Positions 37,119 to 56,060 of a stretch of DNA of 64,000 bases are shown in pieces (the stretch's first letter is position 1; every line of letters begins with the position of its first letter). The position numbers were made by a program, and so were the translations under genes. The notes under the pieces were generated by a model. That model searched no databases. It was not told the origin of the DNA and was given only the letters and a program-made list of their open reading frames with translations. Origin of the DNA: Ruminiclostridium sp. (GTDB lineage Bacteria; Bacillota; Clostridia; Oscillospirales; Oscillospiraceae); contig JAFSFC010000006.1 of the NCBI GenBank assembly GCA_017435425.1, positions 1 to 64,000 on the forward strand, read 5' to 3'.

Positions 37119-37171
37119 GGGCGATTTACCTCTGTCACATGGTATCTGCCCCATTTGTAACGAGCAGATAC

Positions 37172-37939: not shown

Positions 37940-37970
37940 TGCATTACCCGCCTGTCATATTGAGAGGGGC

Positions 37971-37985
37971 GGCCGCAGGGCGGCC
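37971..37985 (-). other. Short GC-rich hairpin before eutT
   Basis: GGCCGC, three bases, GCGGCC in the eutM-eutT space. No T-run follows. It may affect mRNA processing. Confidence 0.4.
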
Positions 37986-38022
37986 ACCCTTCGGATTGGT
38001 CAAAAACTGGGGCAGGGGAGGA

Positions 38023-38313: not shown

Positions 38314-38367
38314 GTTATTTACCTCCAAATGTTTTGGTTAAATGTTGTGTGGATAAAGGTAGTGGGA

Positions 38368-39891: not shown

Positions 39892-39938
39892 GGTCGTACC
39901 TCCTGGGGTGTTAGGTTAAGTTTGGTTGCAGAAAGAAA

Positions 39939-40235
39939 TTACTCTTCAGCGGTGCCACCCAGGACAGGCAGGATGTACTCAACCTCGCCATGGGGACGGG
40001 GAATGACGTGGACGGAGATCAGCTCACCAACACGGGAAGCTGCTGCTGCGCCAGCGTCGGTAGCAGCCTTGACAGCGCCGACGTCGCCGCGGACCATAAC
40101 GGTGACCAGACCGCCGCCAACGTGGACCTTACCGATCAGGTGAACGTTTGCTGCCTTGACCATTGCGTCGGCTGCTTCGATGGAACCGACCAGACCCTTG
40201 GTTTCGATCATACCTAATGCCTGCATGCTATTCAT
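39939..40235 (-). CDS. eutM: Microcompartment hexamer shell protein EutM (first copy)
   Basis: This 98-residue BMC-H protein is the major facet tile. It has [17 protein letters not shown] and [17 protein letters not shown]. The copy at 38023 differs only at the ends. Its ATG follows GGAGGT. Confidence 0.94.
39958..40223 (-). repeat. Long direct repeat, copy 1 (eutM)
   Basis: Counterpart of 38038-38303. Most differences are third-position changes, so the protein core is conserved while the DNA has drifted slightly. Confidence 0.85.
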
Positions 40236-40317
40236 AATAATACCTCCATTGATTCACTGAATGGTTTTACTTAACAAGTTTAATATTTTACTCCATATCC
40301 ATGGAGAGGGTTTACCA

Positions 40318-40971
40318 TTAATAGGTGGTGGGTGCGTCTGCGATCTCGCAGATGGTCTCTGCAAAGGCCTCGCAGGCTGCCCGGCAGGCTGCCTGGTCTC
40401 CTACCAGGAGACCGCCTGCAAAGTTGGTTTCAGAGGGAGGACCATAGAAGGTCTTCAGCTCCACATCTGCTGCCTTCAAAGCAGCATCCATGCCCACCAT
40501 GGCTTCCAGCGGGGGAGCGATCAGGTAGGCCATGGCAGTGCCCTCGGGAACCTCTGCCATCTTGGACAGGTAGGTGCCGGTCCGGGAGATGGTGTGGGCA
40601 AAGTAGACAATGGAATCGTCGTCGTTTGCACTGTAGAAGCTGGCCTCGTTCTCACAGTAGTCGATGGCAGCTTCCAGACCGCTTCGGATCTCGGCGGGGT
40701 TTTCTGCGGACAGGATGCCGATGAATTCACCGGCCAGTGCGGTGCTGGCATTGCCTGCACCGGCGTACATGCTCCGGGCATAGACCACGGTGACCATGGC
40801 CTTCTTGGTGGCCTCATCCAGGGCAGCGTAGGAGACATCGTCACAGTCAGAGGTAAAGATACCTAAGCTGCGGTGACCTTCCGGTACCTCCAGACGAGTC
40901 AGGAGCATGGGGTCAGCATTGGGGATGATCCGTACGCTGAGGATGGTGGTGCCCATTCTTTTTCCGCGCAT
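40318..40971 (-). CDS. eutL: Tandem-BMC shell protein EutL
   Basis: This 217-residue protein has LSVRIIPNADPMLL at the start and two BMC repeats (ALDEATKKAMVTVVYARSMY; MVGMDAALKAADVELKTF). EutL trimers form gated pores. GGAGG lies 8 bases before ATG 40971. It lies 16 bases after eutC. Confidence 0.93.
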   Translation of the reverse strand: MRGKRMGTTILSVRIIPNADPMLLTRLEVPEGHRSLGIFTSDCDDVSYAALDEATKKAMVTVVYARSMYAGAGNASTALAGEFIGILSAENPAEIRSGLEAAIDYCENEASFYSANDDDSIVYFAHTISRTGTYLSKMAEVPEGTAMAYLIAPPLEAMVGMDAALKAADVELKTFYGPPSETNFAGGLLVGDQAACRAACEAFAETICEIADAPTTY

Positions 40972-40987
40972 AGGGTTCTCCTCCTTT

Positions 40988-41869
40988 TTACTTCACCAGA
41001 TCAACGCCGCTGGCCTTCTGCTCCAGGATCTTGGCAATGACCTCAGCCACATAGGCGCCTGCCTCAACAGCGGCGGTGCCGTTCTTGTGGATGTTGGAGA
41101 CCACAGTGCGCTTAGACTCGGGCATACCAACATAGGCGTTGTAAGAGATATATGCACTCATACTCTCTGCGGTAGCCAGGCCGGGACGCTCGCCGATCAG
41201 GGTGCAGACCACCTTGGCGCCCAGGGTCTCTGCCACGTGCTCCTGAGAGCCAACACGGCCGAACCGCAGATAGAAGGGGGTGCCCACCTTCAGGCCCATG
41301 CGAGTCAGAGACTCGGTGATAACGGGCAGGATCTTGTTCAGGTTTGCCTCAATGGCAGTGGAGCTCAGACCGTCGGCAGCGTAGATCTGCACGTCGGGGT
41401 TGGCCACACACTTTTCACGCAGAGTCTGCACAGCCTCGGGGCTCAGCTGACGGCCCAGATCAGGACGAGTGACATAGGTGTTCTTGTCCTCACACATGGT
41501 CTGAACGGTGAAGAGACCTGCTTCTTCCAGAACCTTGGGGTTAACGTCAGCAAAAACAGCGTCACGGGCCTGGGCATGGTCTGCACGGAGGGCCAGCATA
41601 GTCTGGGTCTTCAGACGGGAGCCGGCACGGCCCACGCCGATACGGGCAGTGGTGCGCTTCATCATCCGCAGGAGAGCTTCGGGGTCCTCGGGGTTATCGA
41701 TCAGAGGAACAGCCTTGCACTCAGGGGAGGTGATGTCTTCCCATTCTTTGGCAGGAGCGGGGACAGCAGAGGAGGCAGAACCGGGCAGACGGACACTGCC
41801 GGTGGTTTCCAGCTGCTTCACGATTTCGGTTACGATGGCAGCGATCAGTTCAGGATTCACTTGGTTCAT
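40988..41869 (-). CDS. eutC: Ethanolamine ammonia-lyase small subunit
   Basis: This 293-residue subunit binds adenosylcobalamin with EutB. MKRTTARIGVGRAGSRLKTQ and VCTLIGERPGLATAESMSAY are conserved. The first 20 residues (NPELIAAIVTEIVKQLE) form an encapsulation-peptide-like helix. GAGGAGG precedes the ATG, 13 bases after eutB. Confidence 0.95.
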   Translation of the reverse strand: MNQVNPELIAAIVTEIVKQLETTGSVRLPGSASSAVPAPAKEWEDITSPECKAVPLIDNPEDPEALLRMMKRTTARIGVGRAGSRLKTQTMLALRADHAQARDAVFADVNPKVLEEAGLFTVQTMCEDKNTYVTRPDLGRQLSPEAVQTLREKCVANPDVQIYAADGLSSTAIEANLNKILPVITESLTRMGLKVGTPFYLRFGRVGSQEHVAETLGAKVVCTLIGERPGLATAESMSAYISYNAYVGMPESKRTVVSNIHKNGTAAVEAGAYVAEVIAKILEQKASGVDLVK

Positions 41870-41882
41870 CTCTATGGCCTCC

Positions 41883-43247
41883 TCACTTCATGAAAATGGT
41901 GGGGTCGCCGGCACGACGGGTCAGGCGGCCGTTTTCCATGATGCCCATCTTTTCCAGCCACAGCTCAAACTCACGGATGGGACGCAGACCCAGGATCTCG
42001 CGGATAGCTGCGGTGTCGTGGTAAGCGTTGGTCTGGTAGTTGAGCATGATGTCGTCACTGGAGGGAACACCCAGAATGTAGTTGATGCCGCAGCTTGCCA
42101 GCAGCAGAGCCAGGTTTTCAATATCGTTCTGGTCGGCCATCATGTGGTTGGTATAGCAGCAGTCGCAGCCCATGGGGATGCCGCTGAGCTTACCCATGAA
42201 GTGATCCTCCAGACCGGCACGGATGACCTGACGGCTGTCGTACAGGTACTCAGGGCCGATGAAGCCAACCACGGTGTTGACCATGAAGGGATTGAACTCA
42301 CGGGCGAAGGCATAGCAGCGGGACTCCATGGTGACCTGGTCAGCGCCATAGTGAGCATCAGAGGACAGCTCACTGCCCTGGCCGGTCTCGAAGTACAGGA
42401 CGTTGGGACCCTTGGCGGTGCCCTTCTCACGCATGAGAGCCTGTGCTTCCCGGACGGTTGCTGCGGAGAAGCCAAAGGCGGAGTTGCCCTTCTGGCTTCC
42501 TGCAATAGACTGGAAGATCATGTCGCAGGGAGCGCCCTTCTTGACGGCTTCGATCTGGGTGGTGATGTGACCCAGGACACAGATCTGAGTGGGGATCTCG
42601 AACTTGCGCTTGACTTCGTCAAACCGCTTCAGGACCTCACCCAGGGTGGCAGGTGCGTCGGTGACGGGGTTCAGACCCAGCAGCACGTCGCCGCAGCCAT
42701 AGCTCAGACCCTCGAACAGAGAGGCAGTGATACCTTCCACACTGTCGGTGGGATGGTTGGGCTGCAGACGGGTGGACAGGGTACCGCGACGACCCACTGT
42801 GGTGTTGCAGGTTGCTTCGATGCGGACTTTGTTGGCCGCATAGACCAGATCCAGGTTGCTCATCAGCTTACATACGCCGGCAACCACCTCTGCAGTCAGA
42901 CCCTTGCTCAGACGCTTCAGGTCTTCCTCAGAGGACTCATGGCTGAGGATGTACTCACGAAGATCGGCCATGGTCCAGTTGGCGATCTCGTTGTAAACCT
43001 GGCTGTCCAGGGAATCCTGGTTCATCCGGGTCACTTCGTCATCCTCGTAGGGAACCACCGGGTTTTCCCGCAGATCACGGACCAGCAGGTGGCTGAGCAC
43101 CTCTTTGGCGGCGATCCGCTCCAGGTCGGAGGTGGCAGCGATACCGGCCAGGGTATCGCCGGACTTGTTTTCATTTGCTTTGGCCAGCACATCTTTCACA
43201 TCTCGGAACGAGAAGTGTTTGCCAGCCAGAACAGTTGACAGCTTCAT
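41883..43247 (-). CDS. eutB: Ethanolamine ammonia-lyase large subunit
   Basis: This 454-residue catalytic subunit splits ethanolamine to acetaldehyde and ammonia by B12 radical chemistry. It has LGLNPVTDAPATLGEVL, VLYFETGQGSELSSDAHYGAD-type and GIPMGCDCCYTNHM segments in the expected order, and the usual length. It follows eutA by 36 bases. Confidence 0.96.
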   Translation of the reverse strand: MKLSTVLAGKHFSFRDVKDVLAKANENKSGDTLAGIAATSDLERIAAKEVLSHLLVRDLRENPVVPYEDDEVTRMNQDSLDSQVYNEIANWTMADLREYILSHESSEEDLKRLSKGLTAEVVAGVCKLMSNLDLVYAANKVRIEATCNTTVGRRGTLSTRLQPNHPTDSVEGITASLFEGLSYGCGDVLLGLNPVTDAPATLGEVLKRFDEVKRKFEIPTQICVLGHITTQIEAVKKGAPCDMIFQSIAGSQKGNSAFGFSAATVREAQALMREKGTAKGPNVLYFETGQGSELSSDAHYGADQVTMESRCYAFAREFNPFMVNTVVGFIGPEYLYDSRQVIRAGLEDHFMGKLSGIPMGCDCCYTNHMMADQNDIENLALLLASCGINYILGVPSSDDIMLNYQTNAYHDTAAIREILGLRPIREFELWLEKMGIMENGRLTRRAGDPTIFMK

Positions 43248-43283
43248 TCGCTACACTCCTAACAATTTATAACTAACTATTAG

Positions 43284-44714
43284 TTAACCAAATAATAGGG
43301 TCTTAACCACAACGGGAATTACCAGACCACCCATCACCGGGCGGCCCAGATCGATGTAGTCTCCCTGCTCAACTTTGATCCCGTCGATGCAGGCGACCTT
43401 TCTGCGGCCCTGCAACTCTTCCTCCAGCAGGATGCCAAGGGCCTTGGCAATGTCCTGCTCCAGCACCACCAGCACGGGAGCGCCGGCAGGAAGTCCCTGG
43501 TCCATGCCTTTGGCCAGGCAGCGGGCCAGTGCTTTCAGCTGGGGATAGCTGGGATCTCCCTCCCCTGGGAGGGCCAGGATCAGGATATCCGAACTGCTCT
43601 GCTCCAGGAACCAGCGGATCTTATCGGCAAGAAAACCGTGATCGCCGGCAAAGCAGCGGTCCTGCTCCGGAAGATCCAGTTTCAACGCCGGCACACTCTT
43701 CATGGGGAAGAGCTCGTTGGCATAGGTGATGGTGCTGCCGGAGATGCTGGTGGTATAGGTTCCGGCGCCCACCACAGTGGCCCGAATGGTTTCCACACCC
43801 TGGATGGAGGGGATGGAGGCCATCAGCAAGCCTTTTGCAATGGAACGGCCCAGAAGGATACCAATATCGCCATAAGGAACAGGATCGGCCGAATCACTGG
43901 TAATACAGTCAGCCACACCGCCGGAGAAGCAGATGCGGTCGATCTTCAGACCTTCCAACGCAAGCCAGGAGCTTTCCGGCGTCTGGATCTTCCACAGAAG
44001 AGGTTCCTGGGGTTTCAGGAACATGGCCTGGGCCAGCAAGTCTGCCATTTTGTCGGTAATGCGTGTCAGGTCCTCCAGGGTCGTTCTGGAACCAGGGGTC
44101 AGAATGACCCCCACAGCATCTGCCACCAGCTGGGCGGCAGGGCTGACCCGTTCCACAGTCAGGTCGGATTTCAAGCGAATCAGACGTCCACCGATATCCA
44201 GACAGCCTTTGCTGATGGTATCACCGTTGTCAAAGAGGACAATGTTGGTGGTTCCTCCGCCGATATCAAGATTCACTGCCCGGCAATTGTTGTCCAGACT
44301 GTACTGGAACGCACCGCTTCCCTTACCTGCAATGATGGATTCCAGATCAGGTCCCGCGGTAGAGACTACAAACTCTCCGGCAAAGCCGCTGAGTTTATCC
44401 AGCACAGCGGCAGCATTTTCCTTTCGGGCAGACTCGCCGGTGATGATAACAGCGCCGGTGTCCACATCGGCAGGGGAGAAGCCGGCCAGACGGAACTCCT
44501 CTGCCACAATATCCCGGATGGCATCACCGTCAATAAGGACGGGCGTTACCAACGGAGTGATATGTACTGTGCTTTTGTAGATGACCTCTTTATCCACAAT
44601 GGAGATCCGGGGGACGGTGAAGTACCCGGTGGTGTTTTCCATGGTGATCCGGCTAAAGACCAGCTGGGTTGTGGATGTGCCGATGTCAATACCGACACTT
44701 AAAATATCGGGCAT
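43284..44714 (-). CDS. eutA: Ethanolamine ammonia-lyase reactivating factor
   Basis: This 476-residue ASKHA-fold ATPase releases damaged cobalamin from EutBC. The phosphate-1 motif GIDIGTSTTQLVFS and the second LDIGGGTTNIVLF are visible. GGGGGGAG precedes its ATG. A two-hairpin leader lies between it and eutW. Confidence 0.94.
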   Translation of the reverse strand: MPDILSVGIDIGTSTTQLVFSRITMENTTGYFTVPRISIVDKEVIYKSTVHITPLVTPVLIDGDAIRDIVAEEFRLAGFSPADVDTGAVIITGESARKENAAAVLDKLSGFAGEFVVSTAGPDLESIIAGKGSGAFQYSLDNNCRAVNLDIGGGTTNIVLFDNGDTISKGCLDIGGRLIRLKSDLTVERVSPAAQLVADAVGVILTPGSRTTLEDLTRITDKMADLLAQAMFLKPQEPLLWKIQTPESSWLALEGLKIDRICFSGGVADCITSDSADPVPYGDIGILLGRSIAKGLLMASIPSIQGVETIRATVVGAGTYTTSISGSTITYANELFPMKSVPALKLDLPEQDRCFAGDHGFLADKIRWFLEQSSSDILILALPGEGDPSYPQLKALARCLAKGMDQGLPAGAPVLVVLEQDIAKALGILLEEELQGRRKVACIDGIKVEQGDYIDLGRPVMGGLVIPVVVKTLLFG

Positions 44715-44741
44715 TTTCTCCCCCCTTTCTGAAAAAAGACA

Positions 44742-44808
44742 AAAAAAGCCAAGGCGTGTCTCGCAACGCCCTAGCTTTTTTGCTCATAAACCGCACTCTG
44801 TTGTGCAG
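44742..44808 (-). promoter_or_regulatory. Tandem-hairpin leader of eutA, second hairpin a terminator (candidate EutV target)
   Basis: On the transcript, CTGCAC with loop AACAGA and GTGCGG forms the first hairpin. The second is a 16-pair stem (44781-44766 with 44757-44742, some wobble pairs) with an eight-base loop and a T-run, a Rho-independent terminator. In other Firmicutes, EutV binds paired hairpins that overlap such terminators. The loops here do not clearly show the described A1/G4 pattern, so EutV binding is a proposal. Confidence 0.65.
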
Positions 44809-44813
44809 ATGGA

Positions 44814-45887
44814 TTATTCCGTTTTAAAATCGAAAGATATCCGGGTGCCGTTGGAACTGGAGTACACCGTCATATGACCGCGAAGTCGGTCGCGGACGGT
44901 AGCCTCTACGATGTTTAGTCCAAGGCTGCCTGTCCGGGGCGCAGCAATATCAAAGCCGCTGCCATTGTCTGCCACGGTCACAGTGTGGAACAGACTGCCG
45001 GCCAGGAAGGACACCTGAATACTGCCAGAGTCTCTGTCTTCAAAGGCGTGTTCTAACGCATTGGTGATCAGCTCGTTGACCACCAGAGAGACCGAACTGG
45101 CAGTATCGGGAGACAGCATCACAGAAGAACCATCGATCTGGATGGTGATGGACTTGCCAACAGGAACAAAAGACTGCAGGTTTTTTCGCAGCTGCTCCAG
45201 CAAGGTCATGCTGTCGATCTGGTGAAAACCATCCCGATTCTGTGTTAATATATCATGGATCGCAGCAATTGACAAGACTCGACTGACATTTTCCTGCAAA
45301 ATTTTCTTGGTAAAGTCATTTCCGCACCGACGCGCCTGGATGTTCAGGATGCTGGCCACCAGCTGAAGATTGTTCTTCACACGATGGTGGACTTCACGGA
45401 GGGTCGTGGTATCAGCACTGGTCTGACTGGAGCGAAGGGTACTGTCCTCTTTCTCGTAGGTACGGGCCAGACTTTGGTACTTCTTTTCCTGGAGGACATC
45501 ATCGCTGATATCCAGTTCCCGGATCAGCAGGGCAATACACCGCTGGTCAGAATTAAAAATGGGGACAACATCCTGACGCACGGTGTGGTTTTCCTGGGTG
45601 ATGGCCTTGATATCCCGAACAGGGGAGAGGCTCCTCCATGCGTGAAAGACTGCGGGCTCCTTCATGGGCAGGATAAGGACGCCCACAACGCTTTTTTCAT
45701 ATGCACTTCCCGATGTGGGTTGCGCCTGGGCCACGACAACGATCTCACCGTCTGTGGTGGGACAGTCGATGAATACATCAGCCCCTGTTAACTCGGCCAT
45801 CAGAGGAAGCTGCTTACTGACCTCCTCCAGCTGTTGAATGTCAGCAGGGGAGAGGGTGGTCTGCTCCTGACAGATTTTTCTGAGCAT
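44814..45887 (-). CDS. eutW: Ethanolamine-sensing histidine kinase EutW
   Basis: This 357-residue soluble kinase has an N-terminal sensor region (residues 1-150), the phosphoacceptor in REVHHRVKNNLQLVASILN (HisKA_2 type) and an ATPase domain with VVNELITNALEHAF and VADNGSGFD. It phosphorylates EutV. It lies 3 bases after eutV. No membrane segment is seen, so it senses ethanolamine inside the cell. Confidence 0.92.
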   Translation of the reverse strand: MLRKICQEQTTLSPADIQQLEEVSKQLPLMAELTGADVFIDCPTTDGEIVVVAQAQPTSGSAYEKSVVGVLILPMKEPAVFHAWRSLSPVRDIKAITQENHTVRQDVVPIFNSDQRCIALLIRELDISDDVLQEKKYQSLARTYEKEDSTLRSSQTSADTTTLREVHHRVKNNLQLVASILNIQARRCGNDFTKKILQENVSRVLSIAAIHDILTQNRDGFHQIDSMTLLEQLRKNLQSFVPVGKSITIQIDGSSVMLSPDTASSVSLVVNELITNALEHAFEDRDSGSIQVSFLAGSLFHTVTVADNGSGFDIAAPRTGSLGLNIVEATVRDRLRGHMTVYSSSNGTRISFDFKTE

Positions 45888-45890
45888 ATG

Positions 45891-46619
45891 TCAGCCCTCC
45901 CTTCCAAAAAGGCTTTTTAACTCCTTGGCGGCCTGTTCCAAAGAGCATTTGTGGCTCTTTGCAAAGGTGGTGATATAGTGATAGGCCCGGGAATCGGTCA
46001 TGTTCTTTCGGTCCATCAGGATCTTTTTCACCGCAGCGATGTCGTCGTTCTGGGAGGCCTGCTGCAGGATCCGTTCTGCCAGGGCGGCAATGGAGAGTCG
46101 CTTATCCATTGCGGTCTTGCGCATCTGCCGATAGGCTTCCGTCTCCGAGCAGCCCTGGGTTTTTGCCAGATATTGCTGCGCCTTCATGATTTGACGGTTC
46201 TCACGGATCCTCCGCTCTGCGTCGGCAGCCTGCATGCGGACTTCCTTCAGCCGCTGGCTCTGGGCATAGGCCACCTCGATGGTGGGCAGCAAAGATTTCT
46301 GTTCAATCGGCTTGACCAGGTAGCCGGTTACACCGGCAGTACTGGCTCGCTCAATGACATCCCGATCACTGAAAGCGGTAAGCAGGATGACACATTCTGC
46401 CAGATCTTCTTCCAGGATGGTTTCCGAAGCAGTCAATCCGTCAAAGATGGGCATTTTTACGTCCATCAGGACCACATCGGGATGGAGGGACCGGCAAAGT
46501 TCGATGGCATCGAACCCATCAGCGGCCTCGCCGACCACGGAAAAACCAAGTTCCTGAAGCATGTCAGACAGGTCCATTCGGGTGATTGGCTCGTCGTCAA
46601 CGATGATCACTTTTTTCAA
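45891..46619 (-). CDS. eutV: Antiterminator response regulator EutV with two ANTAR-like segments
   Basis: This 242-residue protein has a receiver domain (residues 4-120) with phosphoacceptor D53 (LMDVKMP), T81 and K103. A coiled segment leads to an ANTAR RNA-binding domain (about 136-184). Unusually, residues 191-238 repeat the pattern: EAYRQMRKTAMDKRLSIAAL aligns without gaps with RAYHYITTFAKSHKCSLEQA. EutV proteins I recall are about 190 residues with one ANTAR. The start is TTG 46619 after GGGAGGG. Confidence 0.9.
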   Translation of the reverse strand: MKKVIIVDDEPITRMDLSDMLQELGFSVVGEAADGFDAIELCRSLHPDVVLMDVKMPIFDGLTASETILEEDLAECVILLTAFSDRDVIERASTAGVTGYLVKPIEQKSLLPTIEVAYAQSQRLKEVRMQAADAERRIRENRQIMKAQQYLAKTQGCSETEAYRQMRKTAMDKRLSIAALAERILQQASQNDDIAAVKKILMDRKNMTDSRAYHYITTFAKSHKCSLEQAAKELKSLFGREG

Positions 46620-46818: not shown

Positions 46819-48027
46819 ATGGAAGGCAAGCGTGATAATCATCATATCTTCACAAGACGGGTCCTGGACAAGGAGCTGTGTGATAAACTGGTCCAGTCTG
46901 CCAGTTTGACCATCGGCTGCAATGTGCTCATCACCGATGAGACCAGCCACGTCCTGTCCAGTAATGATCCCAGCCGAGAGGGCACTCTTCACGAGGCATC
47001 CATTGAGGTCATTCGGACCAAGCAGAAGGCCTATCATAACAGTGCCGCAGCTATGCGGTTAGCAGGTACCATGCCCGGTATGACGATCCCTCTCTTTATG
47101 GGGAATGATGTCATTGGCACCATCGGCATCACCGGTTCTCCCCAGGAAATCTCCCGCTATGCAGCGCTGATCCAGCAGTTTGCCCAGATCTTCATGAGTT
47201 TTCAGAGCCAGCAGCAGACCTCTGCCCAACTGGACTACCGAAAGCAGACTCTGATCCGTGAGATCGTAACCTTTGAAAAGCGGATCCGTAATCCCGAGGA
47301 TGTCCATGCCCTGGCCTATGAGGTTGGAGTAGACCTGAACATTCCCCGTGTCGCCATTCTGGTCAAAAATGGACAGGATACAGAAAATACCATCACCGAG
47401 GAAGAAAAGAGCCTGGCCTCTGAACATGTGAAGGATATCATCACAAAGTATTTCTCTGATACCCAGGATTTCATTTGTCCGCAAAATGATTCTGAATATG
47501 CTGTACTTGCCTGTCTGCCGGATGGCATTCAGGACAGCAGCATGGAACAGGTCATCAATACTTGTCAGGAGATGGAACAGGAGCTGCTTCAGGCCGGCCA
47601 TGGCGTACTCATCGGAATAGGTTCCATGGCCACTTCTCTGGAAGGGCTGCGCCTGTCCTACGAAAATGCTGCCTTTGTCCTTCGTATCCTTCAGGCCAAG
47701 ATCCGGGAAGCGACCTGTCTGTCCATTGCAGACTTGATGCTGGAGAAATTAGCTGCTAATTTACCCGAGGATGTGTGCGAAGAGGCAGCAAATACCCTCT
47801 TCCGAACGATCCTTCAGGCACCGAACTATGACGAGATCATTACCATCATCGAATGCTGGTGCCGCCTGAGATTCCAGTTTACAAAGACAGCAGAGGCCCT
47901 TCACATCCATAAGAGCACCCTAGTCTATCGATTCCGCAGGATCCAGGAACTCTATGGCCTTGACCTGTATGATTTTGACCGAGTGGTTGCCCTATACCTT
48001 CTGGATATTCGCCGAAAGCTGAAGTGA
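46819..48027 (+). CDS. CdaR/PucR-type sugar-diacid-sensing regulator
   Basis: This 402-residue protein has an N-terminal diacid-recognition domain (about 10-140: VQSASLTIGCNVLITDETSHV, GTIGITGSPQEISRYAALI), a middle domain, and a C-terminal PucR helix-turn-helix (TKTAEALHIHKSTLVYRFRR). The family activates catabolic genes on binding small acids. A 20-base perfect terminator follows, then the dehydrogenase/TRAP operon in the same direction, so that operon is its likely target. Confidence 0.9.
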   Translation: MEGKRDNHHIFTRRVLDKELCDKLVQSASLTIGCNVLITDETSHVLSSNDPSREGTLHEASIEVIRTKQKAYHNSAAAMRLAGTMPGMTIPLFMGNDVIGTIGITGSPQEISRYAALIQQFAQIFMSFQSQQQTSAQLDYRKQTLIREIVTFEKRIRNPEDVHALAYEVGVDLNIPRVAILVKNGQDTENTITEEEKSLASEHVKDIITKYFSDTQDFICPQNDSEYAVLACLPDGIQDSSMEQVINTCQEMEQELLQAGHGVLIGIGSMATSLEGLRLSYENAAFVLRILQAKIREATCLSIADLMLEKLAANLPEDVCEEAANTLFRTILQAPNYDEIITIIECWCRLRFQFTKTAEALHIHKSTLVYRFRRIQELYGLDLYDFDRVVALYLLDIRRKLK

Positions 48028-48127
48028 GCAAAGCAACGCAGGATTGAACAATATTTTCCTTTTTGTGTTGGAAAGTAGTTTCATTGGAATTTTTCGAAAA
48101 CGATATAAGAAAAGCTAATTTAATTAA

Positions 48128-48175
48128 CAAATTGAAAGGCGAATCCCAAGTATTAGGGATTCGCCTTTCAATTTG
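48128..48175 (+). terminator. Terminator of the CdaR-like gene
   Basis: A perfect 20-base inverted repeat around AAGTATTA. The pairing of AAATTGAAAGGC with GCCTTTCAATTT gives terminator-like ends on both strands. Confidence 0.9.
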
Positions 48176-48188
48176 ACAAACACGTCTA

Positions 48189-48200
48189 TTTCGTACGAAA
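48189..48200. repeat. 12-base palindrome, candidate operator
   Basis: TTTCGTACGAAA is perfectly symmetrical and lies between the regulator's terminator and the operon promoter region. Confidence 0.5.
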
Positions 48201-48267
48201 CGTAGTAGAAAAGCAGTAGTGCGACAAGAAAATTCCGACGTTTTAAGGATGACAGAAACGAAGAAAA

Positions 48268-48299
48268 ATGATACCATCAGGTTGAGAATAGGGTATCAT
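48268..48299. repeat. Inverted repeat overlapping the operon promoter
   Basis: ATGATACC, 16 bases, GGTATCAT. The right arm overlaps a second symmetry, TATCA-TGATT-TGATA (48294-48308). This is a plausible site for the CdaR-like regulator. Confidence 0.5.
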
Positions 48300-48423
48300 G
48301 ATTTGATAGAATTGTGAATTGTGCGCAGCACAGTATGACATGTTCAATGGATACTGACCCCGTTCCCTGACAATGGTAAATGCCATTGTTCAAAATATAA
48401 GCAAAAGAAAGGATCTGAAGATT

Positions 48424-49530
48424 ATGACTCCCAAGAAGATCGCAGTCCTGGGCGGCGGCAACGGCGCTCACACCATGGCAGCAGAGCTGACCCTGAAGGG
48501 CCACACTGTCAACATGTACGAAATGCCCCAGTTCAAGAACAACATGCAGAAGGTTTTTGAGACCGAGACCATCAAGCTGCAGGGCAACATCCCCGAGCTG
48601 CAGGGCGCAGTGAAGCTGAACATGGTCACCGACGACATCGCTAAGGCTGTCGAGGGCTGCCACTACATCTGCATCGTCGCTCCCGCATTCGCTCACCTGG
48701 GCTATGCTAAGCTGCTGAAGGGTCACGTCCACAAGGACCAGATCATCGTTACCTATCCCGGCGCATTCTCCGCTCTGGTTCTGAAGAACGTCATCGGTGA
48801 AGAGGACTGCCCCATCTTCGCTGACGCCAACAACCTGCCTTACGACGCACGTCTGACCGCTCCCGGCTCCGACACCGTCAACGTCTTCGGCCGCAACCCC
48901 ATCAACATCGCATTCATGCCTGCTGAAAAGGGCCCCGAGCTGATCGACGAAATGCGCGAAGACCTGTTCCCCTTCGAGCGTATCTACACCGACGTTCTGG
49001 AGTGCGGTCTGGCTATCGTTAACCCCGACTGGCACGCAGGCCCCGTCCTGTTCAACATCTCCCGCATCGAGTCTCCTCAGGTCAGCTTCTACCTGTACGA
49101 GCACGGCTGGACTCCCTCCGCTTGCCGCCTGAACATCGCTATGGACAAGGAGCGTAAGGCTCTGGGCAACGTTCTGGGCTACAACCTGCGTCCCATGGAG
49201 GACTTCGCAGGCCGTCCCGACGACTACGAGTGGACCTGGCAGGACCTGTACAAGGAAGGCCACGGCTCCATCGGCCTGACCCCCATCTGCGGCCCCAACG
49301 ACATCAACTCCCGTTACCTGACCGAGGACATCCCCTACGGCCTGGTGCCCTGGGCAGCCATCGCTGAGGTCGTCGGCGTTGACATGCCTCTGACCAACGG
49401 CTTCATTGACATCATCAATGTTGTCCACGAGAAGGACTGGCGTGCACTGGGCTGCGGCCTGGACGAGCTGGGCATCGAAGGCATGGACAAGGATACCCTG
49501 CTGGCATACGTGCGTACCGGCAAGAAGTAA
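48424..49530 (+). CDS. Octopine/nopaline dehydrogenase family NAD(P) oxidoreductase
   Basis: This 368-residue enzyme has an N-terminal Rossmann domain (KIAVLGGGNGAHTMAAEL) and an opine-dehydrogenase helical domain with the conserved histidine in NPDWHAGPVLFN. The family reversibly links an amino acid and a 2-oxo acid, or oxidises related acids. ATG 48424 is chosen over upstream in-frame starts, since the Rossmann motif begins at residue 5. It is the first gene before a TRAP transporter and a B12 mutase, so it probably acts on the imported carboxylate. The substrate is unknown. Confidence 0.85.
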   Translation: MTPKKIAVLGGGNGAHTMAAELTLKGHTVNMYEMPQFKNNMQKVFETETIKLQGNIPELQGAVKLNMVTDDIAKAVEGCHYICIVAPAFAHLGYAKLLKGHVHKDQIIVTYPGAFSALVLKNVIGEEDCPIFADANNLPYDARLTAPGSDTVNVFGRNPINIAFMPAEKGPELIDEMREDLFPFERIYTDVLECGLAIVNPDWHAGPVLFNISRIESPQVSFYLYEHGWTPSACRLNIAMDKERKALGNVLGYNLRPMEDFAGRPDDYEWTWQDLYKEGHGSIGLTPICGPNDINSRYLTEDIPYGLVPWAAIAEVVGVDMPLTNGFIDIINVVHEKDWRALGCGLDELGIEGMDKDTLLAYVRTGKK

Positions 49531-49593
49531 TTTTTGTCGAAATTAATAAATCCGGGAGACGCAACCGGAAAAACAACAAGGAGGAACACAAAA

Positions 49594-50679
49594 ATGAAGA
49601 AAGCACTGAGTCTCATCCTGGCTCTGGCAATGTCTGCTTCCCTGCTGGCTGGCTGCGGCGGCGGCGGCGATGACACTGCTGAGGCCGAAGGCGGCGCTGA
49701 AGGCGAAGTCTACACCCTGCGCATCGCAACCCACTACAACCAGGAGCACCTGGGCTATCAGGCACTGCAGCGCATCGAGGAGAAGCTGGAGACCGAGTCT
49801 GAGGGCCGTCTGGACGTCACTCTGTACCCCTCTTCCCAGCTGGGCGACTACACCCTGACCTTCCAGGAGCTGGGTGAAGGCACCGTTGACATCGCTCTGA
49901 TTCCCATCCCCTCTGAGTATGACCCCCGCCTGGAGATGAACTTCATCCCCTACCTGTTCAACGGCTATGACGGCCTGCAGGCAGGCTTCGGCGAAGGCTC
50001 CTACTTCTTTGAGAAGTACACCGAGATCATGGGCGACCTGAACATCAAGCTGCTGGGCATGTATGTTGAGGGCATGATCGGCTTCGGCTTCGTTCCCGAA
50101 CCCGTCGGCTACAACGACGTCACCGTCGACAAGGGTCTGATGGTCCGTGCTCCCGCTATCGAGGTCTACAACCTGGTCACCGAGGACATGGGCTACTCCG
50201 CAACCACCATTGCTTATGCTGACCTGTACACCGCAATGCAGACCGGCGTTTGCGACGGCTGGATCGGCGGCACTCCTCAGCTGAACTACTCCGACTTCCG
50301 CGACGTTATCAAGTACTATGTCCCCTACAACGTGTTCGCTGAGAACATCGGCTTCCTGATGAGCCAGGATGTCTTCAACGGCATGCCCGAGGACCTGCAG
50401 ACCCTGATCACCACCACCTTCACCGAAGAGTCCGTCAACTCCTTCACCACCGCTAAGACCGGTGACGAGGAAGCTATGCAGAAGATGGCCGACTACGGCA
50501 TCACCATTCTGGAGCTGACCGACGAAGAGATGCAGGCTTACATCGACCACGTCATCGCTACCACTTGGCCCAAGCTGACCAAGAACATCGGCGAGGACAT
50601 CCTGAACGGTCTGATCGAGGCTAACACCGGTGCTGACGCTGGTGAGGCTGCTGAGACCGAAGAAGCTGCTGAGGCTTAA
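49594..50679 (+). CDS. dctP: TRAP transporter substrate-binding lipoprotein (DctP)
   Basis: This 361-residue protein has a lipoprotein signal (ALAMSASLLAGC), a Gly/Glu linker and the DctP fold (RIATHYNQEHLGYQAL, LPSSQLGDYTL-like, AYADLYTAMQTGVCDGWIGG). It captures a carboxylate outside the cell. AAGGAGGAA precedes ATG 49594. The conserved arginine expected to bind carboxylate may be in LMVRAPAIE. The C-terminal tail is very acidic. Confidence 0.93.
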   Translation: MKKALSLILALAMSASLLAGCGGGGDDTAEAEGGAEGEVYTLRIATHYNQEHLGYQALQRIEEKLETESEGRLDVTLYPSSQLGDYTLTFQELGEGTVDIALIPIPSEYDPRLEMNFIPYLFNGYDGLQAGFGEGSYFFEKYTEIMGDLNIKLLGMYVEGMIGFGFVPEPVGYNDVTVDKGLMVRAPAIEVYNLVTEDMGYSATTIAYADLYTAMQTGVCDGWIGGTPQLNYSDFRDVIKYYVPYNVFAENIGFLMSQDVFNGMPEDLQTLITTTFTEESVNSFTTAKTGDEEAMQKMADYGITILELTDEEMQAYIDHVIATTWPKLTKNIGEDILNGLIEANTGADAGEAAETEEAAEA

Positions 50680-50746
50680 TCGGTAATCAGTACTGCTGCT
50701 CTGTTTGATTGATACCAGCCAGTTTCGTATTGATTAAACATTAATC

Positions 50747-50780
50747 GAGCCGGGGTACCCCGTGGTGCCCCGGCTCTTTT
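50747..50780 (+). terminator. Attenuator between dctP and dctQ
   Basis: GAGCCGGGG, a 12-base loop, CCCCGGCTC and TTTT. It likely gives more binding protein than permease, as is common in TRAP operons. Confidence 0.85.
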
Positions 50781-50832
50781 CCAAACATCACAATTCCATA
50801 TTACTGCATTAGAAACAAGGGAGAGTAATTCA

Positions 50833-51486
50833 ATGTCTAAATCCTTTGACCTGACGCAGTCCCTGGCATGGAAGGGCCTTTCTGAAGTCATCCGTTGGCT
50901 GATGATCGCATGCAGCGTTATCTCCACTGGCTGCATGGTCTATTCCGTGGTTCTGCGTTATGTTTTCAAGGGCAACTTCTACGGTTCCGACGAAGTTATC
51001 ATGCTCTTCGCCTTCTGGCTGTACTTCATGGGTGCTGTCTATGGCTCCTTCGAGAATAGCCACATCAAGGCCGACCTGCTGAACGTTTACATCAAGAATA
51101 TGCGCAAGAAGGATGCTGTTGCTCTGCTGGGCCAGCTCCTGACCATCGTGGTCAACACCATCGTTCTGGTTTGGGCTATTCGTTACTTCGGTGCTGAGAT
51201 CGCAAAGGGCGGTCTGTCCACTGCACTGAAGATTCCTCTGGTCATTCCCAAGTCCGCAGTCTTCTTCGGCTTCCTGCTGATGGAGTTCTATCATGTGGTC
51301 TACTTTATCAAGAACACCCTGACCTTTGTCCGCAAGGGTTATTTCTCTGAGCCTCAGGACGGCGACTACGTCACCGATGCACTGAAGGCCAAGTTCCCCG
51401 AGTGCTCCGCACCCACCAAGGCCGAGGTTATGGCCGCAAAGGCTGCAGAGGCAGCTGAGATTGCAGAAGAGGAGGCTGGCGAATAA
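50833..51486 (+). CDS. dctQ: TRAP transporter small permease (DctQ)
   Basis: This 217-residue protein has four membrane segments. SVVLRYVFKGNFYGSDEVIMLFAFW is the family hallmark around residues 45-70. A long alanine/glutamate-rich cytoplasmic tail ends it. Its stop overlaps the dctM start by ATGGA-type contact at 51486. Confidence 0.9.
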   Translation: MSKSFDLTQSLAWKGLSEVIRWLMIACSVISTGCMVYSVVLRYVFKGNFYGSDEVIMLFAFWLYFMGAVYGSFENSHIKADLLNVYIKNMRKKDAVALLGQLLTIVVNTIVLVWAIRYFGAEIAKGGLSTALKIPLVIPKSAVFFGFLLMEFYHVVYFIKNTLTFVRKGYFSEPQDGDYVTDALKAKFPECSAPTKAEVMAAKAAEAAEIAEEEAGE

Positions 51487-52793
51487 TGGATATCGAAGTC
51501 ATCATTAGTATTGTTATTCTGGTCGTTGGCCTGATCCTTGGTATGCCCATCCCCTTCGCTTTCGGCGGTTCCTTCCTGTGGCTGACCTACACCATGGACT
51601 TTAACCCCAACACCCTGCTGGCATCCGGTTACACCCAGATCAACTCCGTCGTTCTGCTGGCTATCCCCCTGTTCGTCCTGGCCGGTAAGATCATGGAGAA
51701 GGGCAACATCGGCGACGCCTTGATCGGATTGGTCGAGCGATTTGTTGGTAAAGCCAAGAGCGGCCTGGGCGCTGTCTCTGTTATCGTTTCCGCTGTGTTC
51801 GGTTCCATCTCCGGTTCCGCATCCGCAACCCTGTCCTGCATCGGCTCCCTGATGTACCCCCGTATGCTGAAGGCCGGCTATCCCACTGGCTATACCGCTG
51901 CTCTGCTGGCAGCTGCCTGCCCTCTGGGCCTGCTGATCCCTCCCAGCTCTGCACAGATCCTGTATGCATGGTCTTCCGGTACTTCCGTTCTGGCCTGCTT
52001 CACCGCTACCGTCGTTCCCGGTATCATCCTGGTCATCTTCCTGTGCATTGTGAATGCTGTCATGTGCCGCAAGATGGACATCCGTCAGCCCGAGAAGGAA
52101 GAGGGCTCTTGGGTGGCTAACACCGGTAAGGCTGTGATCCACGCTGTCCCCGCACTGATCATGCCCATCATCATCCTGGGTGGTATCTACGGTGGTATCA
52201 TGACCGCTACCGAAGCAGCTGCTATCTCCGTTGCTTATGCTATCCCCGTTGGCTTCCTGGTCTACAAGGGCCTGAAGGGTAAGACCTTCATTCAGGCACT
52301 GACCGAGTCTGCCTCCACCACCGGCGTTATCATGGTTATGTTCTTCATGGTTATGATCTTCTCCAAGCTGCTGACCATGCTGAACGTTCCCACTCAGATC
52401 GCAGAGACTCTGCTGAGCATCACCGACAACCGCATCATTATTCTGCTGATGATCAACCTGTTCATGGTTATTATCGGCATGATCATGGACGATACCTCCG
52501 GTATCCTGCTGTGCACCCCCATCCTGCTGCCCATCGTCACCAGCATTGGCGTGCATCCCGTCCACTTCGCAGCAATCCTGGGCGTGAACCTGGGTATGGG
52601 TAACATCACTCCTCCCACCGCTCCCATGCTGTACCTGTCCGGCCGTGTTGTCGGCGCAAAGATCAACACCATGCTCAAGCCCATCATGATTTTCATCATC
52701 TTCGCATGGATCCCCACTCTGCTGTTGACCACCTACGTCCCCGCAGTTGCAACCACCCTGCCCGGCATCCTGATGCCTCAGCTGTTTGCTTAA
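51486..52793 (+). CDS. dctM: TRAP transporter large permease (DctM)
   Basis: This 435-residue protein has about twelve membrane segments. Family landmarks are ALIGLVERFVGKAKSGLG, GSISGSASATLSCIG and IDDTSGILLCTPILLP-type segments. It forms the sodium-driven channel of the TRAP system. It overlaps dctQ by one base and a terminator follows. Confidence 0.93.
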   Translation: MDIEVIISIVILVVGLILGMPIPFAFGGSFLWLTYTMDFNPNTLLASGYTQINSVVLLAIPLFVLAGKIMEKGNIGDALIGLVERFVGKAKSGLGAVSVIVSAVFGSISGSASATLSCIGSLMYPRMLKAGYPTGYTAALLAAACPLGLLIPPSSAQILYAWSSGTSVLACFTATVVPGIILVIFLCIVNAVMCRKMDIRQPEKEEGSWVANTGKAVIHAVPALIMPIIILGGIYGGIMTATEAAAISVAYAIPVGFLVYKGLKGKTFIQALTESASTTGVIMVMFFMVMIFSKLLTMLNVPTQIAETLLSITDNRIIILLMINLFMVIIGMIMDDTSGILLCTPILLPIVTSIGVHPVHFAAILGVNLGMGNITPPTAPMLYLSGRVVGAKINTMLKPIMIFIIFAWIPTLLLTTYVPAVATTLPGILMPQLFA

Positions 52794-52805
52794 TGATCGT
52801 ATGAA

Positions 52806-52839
52806 AAAGAGACCGATTGCTTGTCAATCGGTCTCTTTT
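52806..52839 (+). terminator. Terminator of the TRAP operon
   Basis: AAAGAGACCGATTG, loop CTTGT, CAATCGGTCTCTTTT. Its loop and 3' arm overlap the next promoter. Confidence 0.92.
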
Positions 52840-52849
52840 ATTGTATGAT
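52821..52849 (+). promoter_or_regulatory. Promoter of the mutase operon inside the terminator
   Basis: TTGTCA at 52821-52826, 17 bases, TATGAT at 52844-52849. The -35 hexamer starts in the terminator loop. The ATG is 25 bases downstream. Confidence 0.7.
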
Positions 52850-52873
52850 AGGGCAGAAGGGAAGTGAACCCAT

Positions 52874-54631
52874 ATGAATATTATCATGAACAAGCGGTTT
52901 GAATATAAAGATCTTCCTGATATGCGGGAGATCCACAATCAAATTGAAAAAATTGCAGCGCAGACCACCATTGGTGAAACGCTGTTTTTCCGGCACCATG
53001 GTGTCAAATCCGAGGCGGAGTTCAAGCGCAAAGCAATGAAGGAGGGATTCATCTCCAAGCATTCCCACATTGGCTGGAACTCCTGGGATGAGACGGCCAG
53101 GAATGTGGAGTATATTTACCGGGAACTGGAGCGCCGGGGGAGCTATATCACCCGTATGGGTTTTATCTTTGATTGGGTCATGGGTGTACCGGAGGAATAC
53201 CGTTCCAAACTCCAGCCGGGGACAGGATTGATTTTTAAGACCCCGGAAGAGTGGAAGGCCATTGGTCAGATCGCACCCATACAGCCCCATATGAGCGACC
53301 ATATGATCGGCTGTCCCAATGCTCTGGAAAACGCCCGGCTGGCTCTGGAGGCCGGTGTGACCTCCCTGGGCAATGTCTCTCATTATTTTACCTATGAGTA
53401 CCCAGGTATTGAGATGGAGCGGGAACGCACCGTGAACTCCCTGCTGGCCTTTGGCCTGATGGGTAAGTTCGATGGCACCATTGTCCACTCCAACCTGGAT
53501 GATGGCTACGGGAACCAGTTCCACGATCTGGCCAACCTGACAGGCTGGACCATGATCGAGCGTTACCTGGTGGAGGAGCTCCTAGGCGCTTCCATGACCT
53601 TCTCCTACGGCAACCTGTTCAGCGATCCCATTTCCCGCATCGTGTTTAACATGGTGTGTGATGCCACCAATGTGAAAAACACCCCCGGAACTATGACCTT
53701 TGGCAACACCATCGACTATGGCCTGGACTTCTCCAAGAACTATGGTGCTCTGTCCAGCTTCTCCCTGGCAGATGCCATCTGCCAGCGGCATAAGCCCACC
53801 GGCCATGCCGTAGCCTCCGTGCCGGTCTCCGAGGCCTGCCGTATTCCCACGGCGGACGAGATCATTGACGGCCACCTGTGCGTGGACATGATGATAGAAA
53901 AGGCAACCCTGTACGAGCCCTATGTGAACTGGACCGCTGTGGAGGCAGAGCGTGATATCCTGCTGGCCTGTGGCCGTGTGTTCTTTGAGCGGGTGATGAA
54001 CGGGCTGGATGACCTGGGGGTGGATCTGACCCATCCCGGCGAGATCTTTGCTGCATTGAAGGCCATCGGCCCGGAACAGCTGGAGACCAACTTTGGTGTG
54101 GGCAAAAAAGAAAAAACCGCCCTTCGAGGGCGGGAGCCGGTGCGTCCCACGGATATCATCAAAACCCTCCAGACTAAGCAGAAGAAGATGTTCTTGTCTG
54201 CCGGTAAGGTAGAAGGAGAGCTTGCCGGCAAAATCGCTCTGGTGGCTTCTACGGATATCCACGACTATGGCAAGGAATTGGTGAAGTCCCTGTGCAACAA
54301 AGCCGGTGCCGAGGTGTTTGATCTGGGCACCTATGTGACTGTAGAGGAGATCATTGAGAATCTTCTGGAAACTGAGAGCAAAGTGGTCATTGTCAGCACC
54401 TACAATGGCATTGCACTTAGCTTTGCCAAAGATCTGATGGCTGCCCTGAAAGAAAACGACATGGAGGATGTGGTCCTCATTATGGGTGGTCTTCTGAATG
54501 AAAATCTGGACGGAAGTCAGCTGGCTGTGGATGTAACTGAGGAACTGAAAGCCCTCGGAGTCAACTGCGACAATCAGATGGAGACCATCGTTCCTACCAT
54601 CAAAAAAATCTACGAGGGGACATATCAATAA
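52874..54631 (+). CDS. Single-chain B12-dependent carbon-skeleton mutase (candidate)
   Basis: This 585-residue protein ends in a B12-binding domain (about 453-580) with the base-off/His-on motif DxHxxG (DIHDYG, H463), then VSTYNG and MGGLLN. Residues 1-440 probably form the catalytic TIM barrel (FDGTIVHSNLDDGYGNQF, FSYGNLFSDPISR). The layout, one chain with a C-terminal B12 domain, resembles 2-methyleneglutarate mutase (614 residues) more than the two-subunit glutamate mutase. The next gene, overlapping by one base, encodes a GlmL/MutL protein. The substrate is unknown. A corrinoid methyltransferase is less likely. Confidence 0.8.
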   Translation: MNIIMNKRFEYKDLPDMREIHNQIEKIAAQTTIGETLFFRHHGVKSEAEFKRKAMKEGFISKHSHIGWNSWDETARNVEYIYRELERRGSYITRMGFIFDWVMGVPEEYRSKLQPGTGLIFKTPEEWKAIGQIAPIQPHMSDHMIGCPNALENARLALEAGVTSLGNVSHYFTYEYPGIEMERERTVNSLLAFGLMGKFDGTIVHSNLDDGYGNQFHDLANLTGWTMIERYLVEELLGASMTFSYGNLFSDPISRIVFNMVCDATNVKNTPGTMTFGNTIDYGLDFSKNYGALSSFSLADAICQRHKPTGHAVASVPVSEACRIPTADEIIDGHLCVDMMIEKATLYEPYVNWTAVEAERDILLACGRVFFERVMNGLDDLGVDLTHPGEIFAALKAIGPEQLETNFGVGKKEKTALRGREPVRPTDIIKTLQTKQKKMFLSAGKVEGELAGKIALVASTDIHDYGKELVKSLCNKAGAEVFDLGTYVTVEEIIENLLETESKVVIVSTYNGIALSFAKDLMAALKENDMEDVVLIMGGLLNENLDGSQLAVDVTEELKALGVNCDNQMETIVPTIKKIYEGTYQ

Positions 54632-56025
54632 TGAGCAGCTCTCGCTATGTGGTCCTGACGGATTTTGGCAGCACTTACACAAAAGTCGTGGTAGTTGACC
54701 TGGAGGAACGGCGAATGGTGATGACCAACCGATTTCCCTCCACAGTTTCTTACGATGCCCGCATCGGTCTGCAGCAATGTTTTGATGCCGCCAGGGCTGT
54801 GATCGGAGAGGAATGTTTTCAGAAATCATTAAAGCTTTCCTCTTCCAGTGCTGCCGGAGGTCTCCGAATGGGCGTGGTTGGTCTTTCAGAAACCCTCAGT
54901 GCCCAGGCAGGAAAAAGTGCCGCCTTCGGAGCCGGAGCTAAGATCCTCTGTACCTGTTCCGGACGTTTAAAGACAGAGGATATCACTCAACTTGAATCAC
55001 TTCCCTTGGAGATCCTCCTTTTCTGCGGCGGGTATGAAAACAGCGGTACCAAAGCTCTTTTACATAATGCCAAGATGCTCGCAGAAAGCAGCCTCCACGT
55101 TCCCATCATATATGCCGGCAATTCTGCTGCCGCAATTCATGTACGCCGTCTGTTGACGCAGGGAAAGAAAGAATGCTATATTGCCAGAAATATCATTCCA
55201 AATGTTGGCCAGATTGATAAGACCCAGGTAGAAGAAATCATTCGGGAGGTATTCCTCCATCGTATTATCAACATGAAAGGCCTGGACAAGGTAACCGGTC
55301 TTCTGGACCGCATGGTCATGCCAACTCCAGCGGCAGTCCTTTCCGGCGGGGAACTTCTTTCCCGCGGAACCCATTCCCAGCCTGGACTGGGAGATCTTAT
55401 GATCGTAGATGTAGGGGGCGCCACCACAGATATTCACTCCTACGCAGAGCAAATGCCCTATGACGGAGCTAAACTGGTGGGGGTTCCGGAACCCTATGTC
55501 AAACGAACGGTAGAGGGAGATCTGGGCATGCGAGAGTCCTCCAATTCTCTTTGCGAGGAAATTGGAATCCATCGCATGATGGCCGAAACGGCTCTGCCTC
55601 AGGAAAAGATACAAGAAGTCATCTCCCATTGGATCACCCAAAATCGGGATCTGGCGTGTGATGAATCTCAGGAAAGGGTGGATAAAGCATTGACGGCAGG
55701 CGCCGTGCGGATCAGCGCCCGCCGCCATGCGGGACGGATCCAGCATATCTCTTCGGCAGGTGTAAAATCCATCCAACATGGAAAAAACCTGACCTCTGTC
55801 AGAACCATCATCGGCACCGGAGGGCCTTTAGTATTCAGTAAAAACGGCGGAACCGCATTGCGGCAGATTCTGCGGGACCGCAATCAAGAACCCGATATCC
55901 TTTTACCGGAGGATGCTCACTTCTATCTGGATGGTGATTACGTTTTCTTCGCCGGTGGTCTCCTCCGGGAGGTTGACGAAGATGCAGCCCTATCCATCAT
56001 GAAAAACAGTCTGAAACAAATATAA
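54631..56025 (+). CDS. glmL: GlmL/MutL-type mutase partner (ASKHA ATPase)
   Basis: This 464-residue protein has the ASKHA phosphate motif TDFGSTYTKVVVVD, the SSAAGGLRMGVVGL segment, YAGNSAA and LMIVDVGGATTDIHSY. GlmL proteins accompany B12-dependent mutases and probably reactivate or repair them. Its ATG overlaps the mutase stop, so the two are translationally coupled. This pairing is the best evidence for the neighbour's type. Confidence 0.9.
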   Translation: MSSSRYVVLTDFGSTYTKVVVVDLEERRMVMTNRFPSTVSYDARIGLQQCFDAARAVIGEECFQKSLKLSSSSAAGGLRMGVVGLSETLSAQAGKSAAFGAGAKILCTCSGRLKTEDITQLESLPLEILLFCGGYENSGTKALLHNAKMLAESSLHVPIIYAGNSAAAIHVRRLLTQGKKECYIARNIIPNVGQIDKTQVEEIIREVFLHRIINMKGLDKVTGLLDRMVMPTPAAVLSGGELLSRGTHSQPGLGDLMIVDVGGATTDIHSYAEQMPYDGAKLVGVPEPYVKRTVEGDLGMRESSNSLCEEIGIHRMMAETALPQEKIQEVISHWITQNRDLACDESQERVDKALTAGAVRISARRHAGRIQHISSAGVKSIQHGKNLTSVRTIIGTGGPLVFSKNGGTALRQILRDRNQEPDILLPEDAHFYLDGDYVFFAGGLLREVDEDAALSIMKNSLKQI

Positions 56026-56026: not shown

Positions 56027-56060
56027 AAAAGCCCATCTGCATAACAGCAGATGGGCTTTT
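56027..56060. terminator. Bidirectional terminator
   Basis: AAAAGCCCATCTGC, loop ATAACA, GCAGATGGGCTTTT, between converging genes. Confidence 0.92.

Follow-up and report, generated by a model that had tools for sequence, protein, structure and literature searches.

We examined a 64,000-nucleotide stretch from the genome of a gut bacterium, Ruminiclostridium sp. (assembly GCA_017435425.1, contig JAFSFC010000006.1, positions 1 to 64,000), hereafter the window, in which positions 46819-56025 encode a CdaR-type regulator, a member of the octopine/nopaline dehydrogenase family (ODH), a tripartite ATP-independent periplasmic (TRAP) transporter, a single-chain mutase with a B12-binding domain, and a partner of the GlmL/MutL family. 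These genes probably form two neighboring modules that are transcribed separately, with a mutase of an undescribed B12 family that most likely acts on a small amino or imino acid. A more specific reading, which we find plausible but a little short of probable, is that the mutase and GlmL make up a family of adenosylcobalamin mutases independent of pyridoxal phosphate (PLP) and that their rearrangement is new. It would be a step in an undescribed amino-acid fermentation reaching crotonyl-CoA in Eubacterium-like and other Clostridia, together with a glycyl radical enzyme, a 2-oxoacid:ferredoxin oxidoreductase, and a vinylacetyl/4-hydroxybutyryl-CoA enzyme. To our knowledge, the described carbon-skeleton mutase reactions that depend on B12 number only a handful, and assigning the substrate could add another and reveal a route of amino-acid fermentation in anaerobes. 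No relevant paper on these gene combinations, on the mutase in Eubacterium limosum, or on ODH with TRAP transporters was found in the open-licence literature.

The mutase and its GlmL partner

The call of a single-chain B12 mutase with a GlmL partner, made in an earlier note on this DNA, held up; the 585-residue protein contains STDIHDYGKE and a MutL-family gene adjoins it. Pfam and NCBIfam recognize only the C-terminal B12 domain of this protein (B12-binding, residues 455-540); the N-terminal catalytic domain of 430 residues had no match in either database or in the PDB, which was searched by profile. An AlphaFold2 model was built from 12 homologs (predicted local distance difference test score, pLDDT, 81.9); an earlier model from seven sequences was poor (pLDDT 50.7) and was not used, the 12-sequence set being more diverse. 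By structural alignment of the predicted model with VIA-align, the top match was glutamate mutase E (1cb7_B; Z 27.8, root-mean-square deviation 3.6 Å over 376 residues, 13% identity), followed by lysine 5,6-aminomutase (Z 25.7), ornithine 4,5-aminomutase (Z 22), and the CoA mutases (Z 15-19). As modeled, the catalytic domain is a glutamate-mutase-type barrel, and the protein combines the features of the adenosylcobalamin mutase superfamily: a barrel, a base-off DxHxxG domain, and a trigger glutamate.

The trigger glutamate lies in a motif, E320-x4-P325, that was invariant among the aligned homologs. The same E-x4-P motif holds Glu330 of GlmE, as seen in an alignment, and Glu338 of ornithine 4,5-aminomutase (OAM), as read from mutagenesis primers (PMC4413051); both residues act on the adenosyl ribose (PMC3958899, PMC4413051). 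In the aminomutases, the PLP lysine is found 11 residues past the histidine that ligates cobalt (His618/Lys629 in OAM and His133/Lys144 in lysine 5,6-aminomutase), and this position is Cys, Leu, or Phe in 12/12 homologs of the mutase family. As the trigger glutamate motif is kept and the PLP lysine position is taken by these residues, the protein looks like a PLP-independent mutase. The computations show the gene content, predicted fold, motifs, pairing, and hairpins; from the families and sequences we infer the following course of cofactor use, catalysis, and reactivation. The DxHxxG domain would bind adenosylcobalamin in the base-off form with His463 as the ligand, and Glu320 of the barrel would engage the adenosyl ribose, triggering Co-C homolysis. 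The adenosyl radical would take a hydrogen from the substrate, which would then rearrange without PLP, and GlmL would swap out the damaged cofactor.

The glmL product belongs to the GlmL/MutL reactivase family by its match to MutL (PF13941). It scored 455.7 bits against the NCBIfam GlmL equivalog NF040745, below the cut-off of 475, and other members of its clade scored 439-473. In a GlmL tree, the window partner and seven others formed one clade (100/100), separate from the GlmL of glutamate mutase (32-41% identity) and from the MutL linked to a putative 2-methyleneglutarate mutase (28-32%). The mutase and GlmL trees showed the same main order for the Bacillota members that they share, as expected for a pair evolving together. 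The mutase family escapes sequence searches of Pfam, NCBIfam, and the PDB, although its predicted fold and trigger residue are those of a working mutase. It also has a co-evolving reactivase, and its homologs range from gut Clostridia to rhizobial plasmids.

Genomic neighbors and the candidate substrate

The distribution of the mutase rests mainly on sampled genomes; a scan of contigs contributed at least six loci, and at least four named loci were added by it to the set of mutase homologs. Few of the sampled genomes had full-length homologs: of 299 from the phylum, two besides that of the window, and of 391 from the class, three further ones, with one fragment among 295 genomes at the order level. 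The family of genome G988 gave four genomes, all in one genus. Homologs on rhizobial plasmids (L095-L098) are full-length and 34-37% identical, are annotated as hypothetical or cobalamin-dependent proteins, and come without GlmL. Of note, two paralogous loci of another genome (L033 and L034 of G280) carry a MerR-type regulator, an aldehyde dehydrogenase, a 26-28% identical mutase homolog, and an EamA transporter, with no GlmL. A 146-residue N-terminal fragment of the mutase family (L047 of G527, 4880-5320) lies behind aldehyde dehydrogenase and xylose-isomerase-like genes and is perhaps a decayed copy.

Two complete genomes (G737 and G988) share a cluster in which the mutase pair is accompanied by an aminotransferase, a four-subunit 2-oxoacid:ferredoxin oxidoreductase, a relative of the 4-hydroxybutyryl-CoA dehydratase/vinylacetyl-CoA isomerase AbfD (1u8v, E 3e-172), a DUF362 protein, an IclR regulator, and a glycyl radical enzyme with its activase. 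Relatives of four of these cluster genes occur elsewhere in the genome of Bacilliculturomica (G995) at 54-80% identity. Four genomes (Bacilliculturomica, G737, G988, and G750) encode SNF- or YkvI-like transporters close to the mutase or to the cluster; in Bacilliculturomica, the gene for a YkvI-like membrane protein comes after the mutase-GlmL pair. In G083, a gene for a tryptophanase-family lyase comes after the pair, and in a metagenome-assembled genome (MAG) of the Desulfitobacteriaceae an aminotransferase fragment precedes it. All four rhizobial plasmid loci that were read have a gene resembling pyrroline-5-carboxylate (P5C) reductase and amino-acid-type ABC transporter genes nearby.

The theme common to these neighbors would be amino-acid catabolism via a 2-oxoacid to an acyl-CoA, and the AbfD relative hints at crotonyl-CoA as the target in anaerobes. 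Because the homologs sit with amino-acid-type transporters, an aminotransferase, a 2-oxoacid:ferredoxin oxidoreductase, and P5C-reductase-like genes, the mutase most likely acts on a small amino or imino acid, and the enzyme probably has a role in amino-acid fermentation. A branched dicarboxylate, one of the substrates offered in the earlier note, is not favored, as the recurring neighbors are of the amino-acid type. The candidate substrates that these neighbors suggest are few and can be tested. We also weighed, on paper, valine-norvaline, pipecolate-3-methylproline, and allylglycine routes, for which we make no claim.

A comparison with the fermentation of 4-hydroxybutyrate or 4-aminobutyrate (GABA) showed that an AbfD-like paralog accompanies the mutase in G737, G988, and G995, while the AbfD of the window genome (3174-4628), 57% identical to that paralog, lies beside CoA-transferase-like and dehydrogenase-like genes. 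The row to which this gene belongs (1318-7547), consisting of genes for a regulator, a 4-hydroxybutyryl-CoA dehydratase, a CoA-transferase-like protein, and an iron-alcohol-dehydrogenase-like protein, probably takes 4-hydroxybutyrate to crotonyl-CoA.

The two proposed modules and alternative readings

Strong hairpins stand between cdaR, odh-dctPQM, and mutase-glmL, so the interval looks like at least three transcription units rather than one operon. The hairpin in the dctM-mutase gap, T-run included, is conserved between the window and two related Ruminiclostridium MAGs (L036 and L037). A TTGTCA-17-TATGAT site, a putative promoter by its match to the consensus, lies within and behind this hairpin, with similar spacing in L036 and L037. 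The earlier note had given the mutase pair its own promoter; this is supported by the conserved hairpin and the overlapping site, and we infer that the two modules are transcribed separately in vivo. The hairpin between dctP and dctQ may yield more binding protein than permease. A search of Rfam gave no match near the locus.

The cdaR and odh-dctPQM genes would provide a regulator that senses a ligand, a TRAP importer, and an NAD-linked enzyme of the opine dehydrogenase type, which together would import and oxidize one carboxylate-bearing compound, possibly an opine or another N-substituted amino acid. ODH matches PF02317 and has an N-terminal Rossmann domain, as expected of the opine dehydrogenase family. 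Among solved structures, its best match is N-(1-D-carboxylethyl)-L-norvaline dehydrogenase (1bg6), with which it aligns over 350 residues (E 4e-39), including the His and Asp regions; unlike that enzyme, the kin of ODH found here occur with TRAP, SSS, or AbgT transporters. Cytobacillus firmus encodes in a row a regulator with a sugar-diacid domain, a sodium:solute symporter, and an ODH (35% identical), with no adjoining mutase, and Paenarthrobacter encodes a GntR regulator, an AbgT-type transporter, and an ODH, also without a mutase beside them; both transporter-ODH sets are plasmid-borne. In Bacilliculturomica, a single run (L066) holds ODH, AbfD-like, four-subunit oxidoreductase, and DctPQM genes with no mutase beside it. 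This run lies downstream of arginine-deiminase-pathway-like genes, a context that suggests that one possible substrate is an arginine opine. From the enzyme family, it is a reasonable guess that the ODH-TRAP set serves to import an N-substituted amino acid, which would then be cleaved in an NAD-linked step, and an opine is a possible substrate.

The earlier note had joined all these families in one candidate pathway, in which the TRAP transporter would import an opine or a branched carboxylate, ODH would oxidize it, and the mutase would rearrange the product. Outside the close relatives of the window this is largely refuted, as homologs of the mutase/GlmL pair rarely adjoin ODH/TRAP genes, the very finding that the note had named as decisive. 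TRAP genes stand beside the mutase only in the window, L036, and L037, whose mutases are 96-97% identical. Searching the fetched loci by tblastn with all seven window genes revealed no ODH or TRAP gene adjoining the pair in Bacilliculturomica, a Clostridia MAG, the Desulfitobacteriaceae MAG, a probable Eubacterium genus, or G737, so the expected co-occurrence largely fails, the ODH-transporter sets likewise lacking an adjoining mutase. We therefore regard the linked pathway as improbable. It would account for genes that are adjacent on one strand, with the TRAP-mutase adjacency kept in L036 and L037, and an indirect metabolic link is offered by the ODH-TRAP operon of Bacilliculturomica, which holds paralogs of the oxidoreductase and AbfD-like genes that accompany the mutase; against it stand the conserved terminator and the promoter-like site before the mutase, and the occurrence of each module without the other alongside in several other lineages. 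A narrower form of the amino-acid reading, in which the substrate of the mutase would be a cyclic imino acid, proline-like or otherwise, or its ring-opened form, is unlikely, though less so than the linked pathway. P5C-reductase-like genes in the four rhizobial plasmid loci and near the oxidoreductase cluster of Bacilliculturomica point to it, as does a Phyllobacterium copy adjoining genes that resemble a hydroxyproline catabolic set. The second-best PDB match of the partner glycyl radical enzyme is HplG, known as a hydroxyproline enzyme. However, the pair has no adjoining P5C-reductase-like gene in the window, G083, or G737, and the glycyl radical enzyme scored 673, far short of the HypD equivalog cut-off of 1100.

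As for the identity of the mutase, it is very unlikely to be a diverged glutamate mutase or 2-methyleneglutarate mutase (MgM) with the same substrate. Glutamate mutase (GlmES with GlmL) has the closest fold in its E subunit and shares the TIM barrel, the DxHxxG domain, the E-x4-P spacing of the trigger glutamate, and a MutL/GlmL-family partner, and a profile comparison with GlmE gave a match that was colinear but weak (probability 21%, E 0.001). In contrast, the window mutase is one chain instead of separate S and E subunits, has no match to PF06368 (GlmE family) even at E up to 5, as is the case throughout the window genome, shows only the low structural identity given above, and is paired with a GlmL of a distinct clade. 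In that weak alignment, GlmE Arg66 faces His65. A methylaspartase-like open reading frame (ORF) follows true glmE genes, whereas no methylaspartase was present in the fetched mutase loci. As a reference for MgM, the family of G988 was searched for PrpF genes, and two gave nicotinate-type clusters (L077 and L078) that encode enamidase-like, PrpF, and MutL proteins and a 615-residue B12 protein, a putative MgM by its neighbors. It resembles the window mutase in being a single chain of about 600 residues with a C-terminal B12 domain, an E-x4-P motif, and a MutL partner in the cluster. A whole-length profile match reached 92% but included the B12 domain; no barrel similarity was detectable, with an N-terminal profile probability of 0.95% and no BLASTP relation (best E 0.18). 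PrpF/Mii, enamidase, and nicotinate-pathway genes, all present in L077 and L078, did not lie beside the mutase pair in the window or in the loci read. The absence of a PF06368 match and of a BLASTP relation to the putative MgM, together with the separate GlmL clade, bears out the view that the mutase falls in no characterized clade. Even less likely is an aminomutase of the lysine 5,6 or ornithine 4,5 type that uses both PLP and B12: these enzymes supply the second-best folds (Z 22-26) and share the trigger glutamate motif, the barrel-B12 order in a single chain is that of OraE, and the neighbors are of the amino-acid type, but the PLP lysine is absent from all 12 homologs. These identities were dropped after the PF06368, MgM BLASTP/GlmL-clade, and PLP-lysine tests. 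An acyl-CoA mutase (MCM, ICM, or HCM) was also dropped, its matches being confined to the B12 domain and below the cut-offs.

Several observations weigh against our preferred reading of two separate modules with a mutase for an amino or imino acid. The model, with 12 sequences behind it, is weak at residues 319-322, which include Glu320, and at 417-435. In a distant homolog next to an SNF-type transporter (L053 of G750, 8862-10628), the Gly of DxHxxG is replaced (DVHEHA). The window genome has no close relatives of the glycyl radical enzyme (best 35%) or of the oxidoreductase (best about 41%), so its downstream route may differ from the cluster seen elsewhere. It should also be noted that three close relatives retain TRAP genes beside the mutase, and a functional link within this group is possible; the L036 and L037 contigs end before the position of ODH, the presence of which is not visible there.

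Features of the interval and related loci

All the genes named in the earlier note were found in the ORFs of the window, on the + strand and at the positions it gave, and the family call of each agrees with its Pfam matches (Table 1). The TRAP set is complete by Pfam, with DctP, DctQ, and DctM together, and the dctP product has a lipoprotein-type N-terminus, judged by reading the sequence.

Table 1 Genes, motifs, and predicted signals in the interval 46819-56025 of the window
Feature	Position	Strand	Details
CdaR-type transcriptional regulator (cdaR)	46819..48027	+	402 residues; Pfam Diacid_rec, GGDEF_2, HTH_30; own hairpin after it
Terminator-like hairpin between cdaR and odh	48128..48175	+	20 bp; -33.9 kcal/mol, z -11
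Octopine/nopaline-dehydrogenase-family oxidoreductase (odh)	48424..49530	+	Likely start 48424, ORF opens 48373; PF02317 Octopine_DH, E 2e-39
TRAP solute-binding lipoprotein DctP	49594..50679	+	Likely start 49594, ORF opens 49534; PF03480, E 4e-39
Internal hairpin between dctP and dctQ	50747..50776	+	-29.1 kcal/mol, z -6.9; also in L036
TRAP small permease DctQ	50833..51486	+	PF04290, E 3e-18
TRAP large permease DctM	51486..52793	+	PF06808, E 1e-87
Rho-independent terminator-type hairpin, dctM-mutase gap	52805..52839 (outer bounds 52803-52840)	+	15-bp stem, T-run; -21.4 kcal/mol, z -7
Promoter-like site 5' of the mutase	52821..52849	+	TTGTCA-17-TATGAT; 10/12 consensus positions match
Single-chain mutase, predicted adenosylcobalamin-dependent	52874..54631	+	585 residues; barrel ~residues 1-420, B12 domain ~450-585 (AlphaFold2 model)
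Glu320 codon	53831..53833	+	By motif (E-x4-P), counterpart of GlmE Glu330 and OAM Glu338
DIHDYG base-off/His-on motif	54254..54271	+	Asp461, His463, Gly466; motif reading/alignment
GlmL/MutL-family (ASKHA) partner of the mutase (glmL)	54631..56025	+	PF13941, E 1e-132
Hairpin after glmL	56027..56060	+	14-pair stem, -24.2 kcal/mol; called terminator-like by the scan, on the - strand

Upstream of the interval, the - strand of the window (34058-46619) carries ethanolamine-utilization genes, named by eye, which include ORFs resembling EutB and EutA as well as a regulator/histidine-kinase pair. In another genome, a diverged gene of the GlmE family (L083, G647:C55:90751-92064) scored 421 bits, compared with 740-780 for typical members. 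It has its own GlmL and a malate/lactate-dehydrogenase-like gene, with no methylaspartase, and the residues at GlmE positions 171, 177, and 330 are changed; this gene possibly encodes another uncharacterized mutase.

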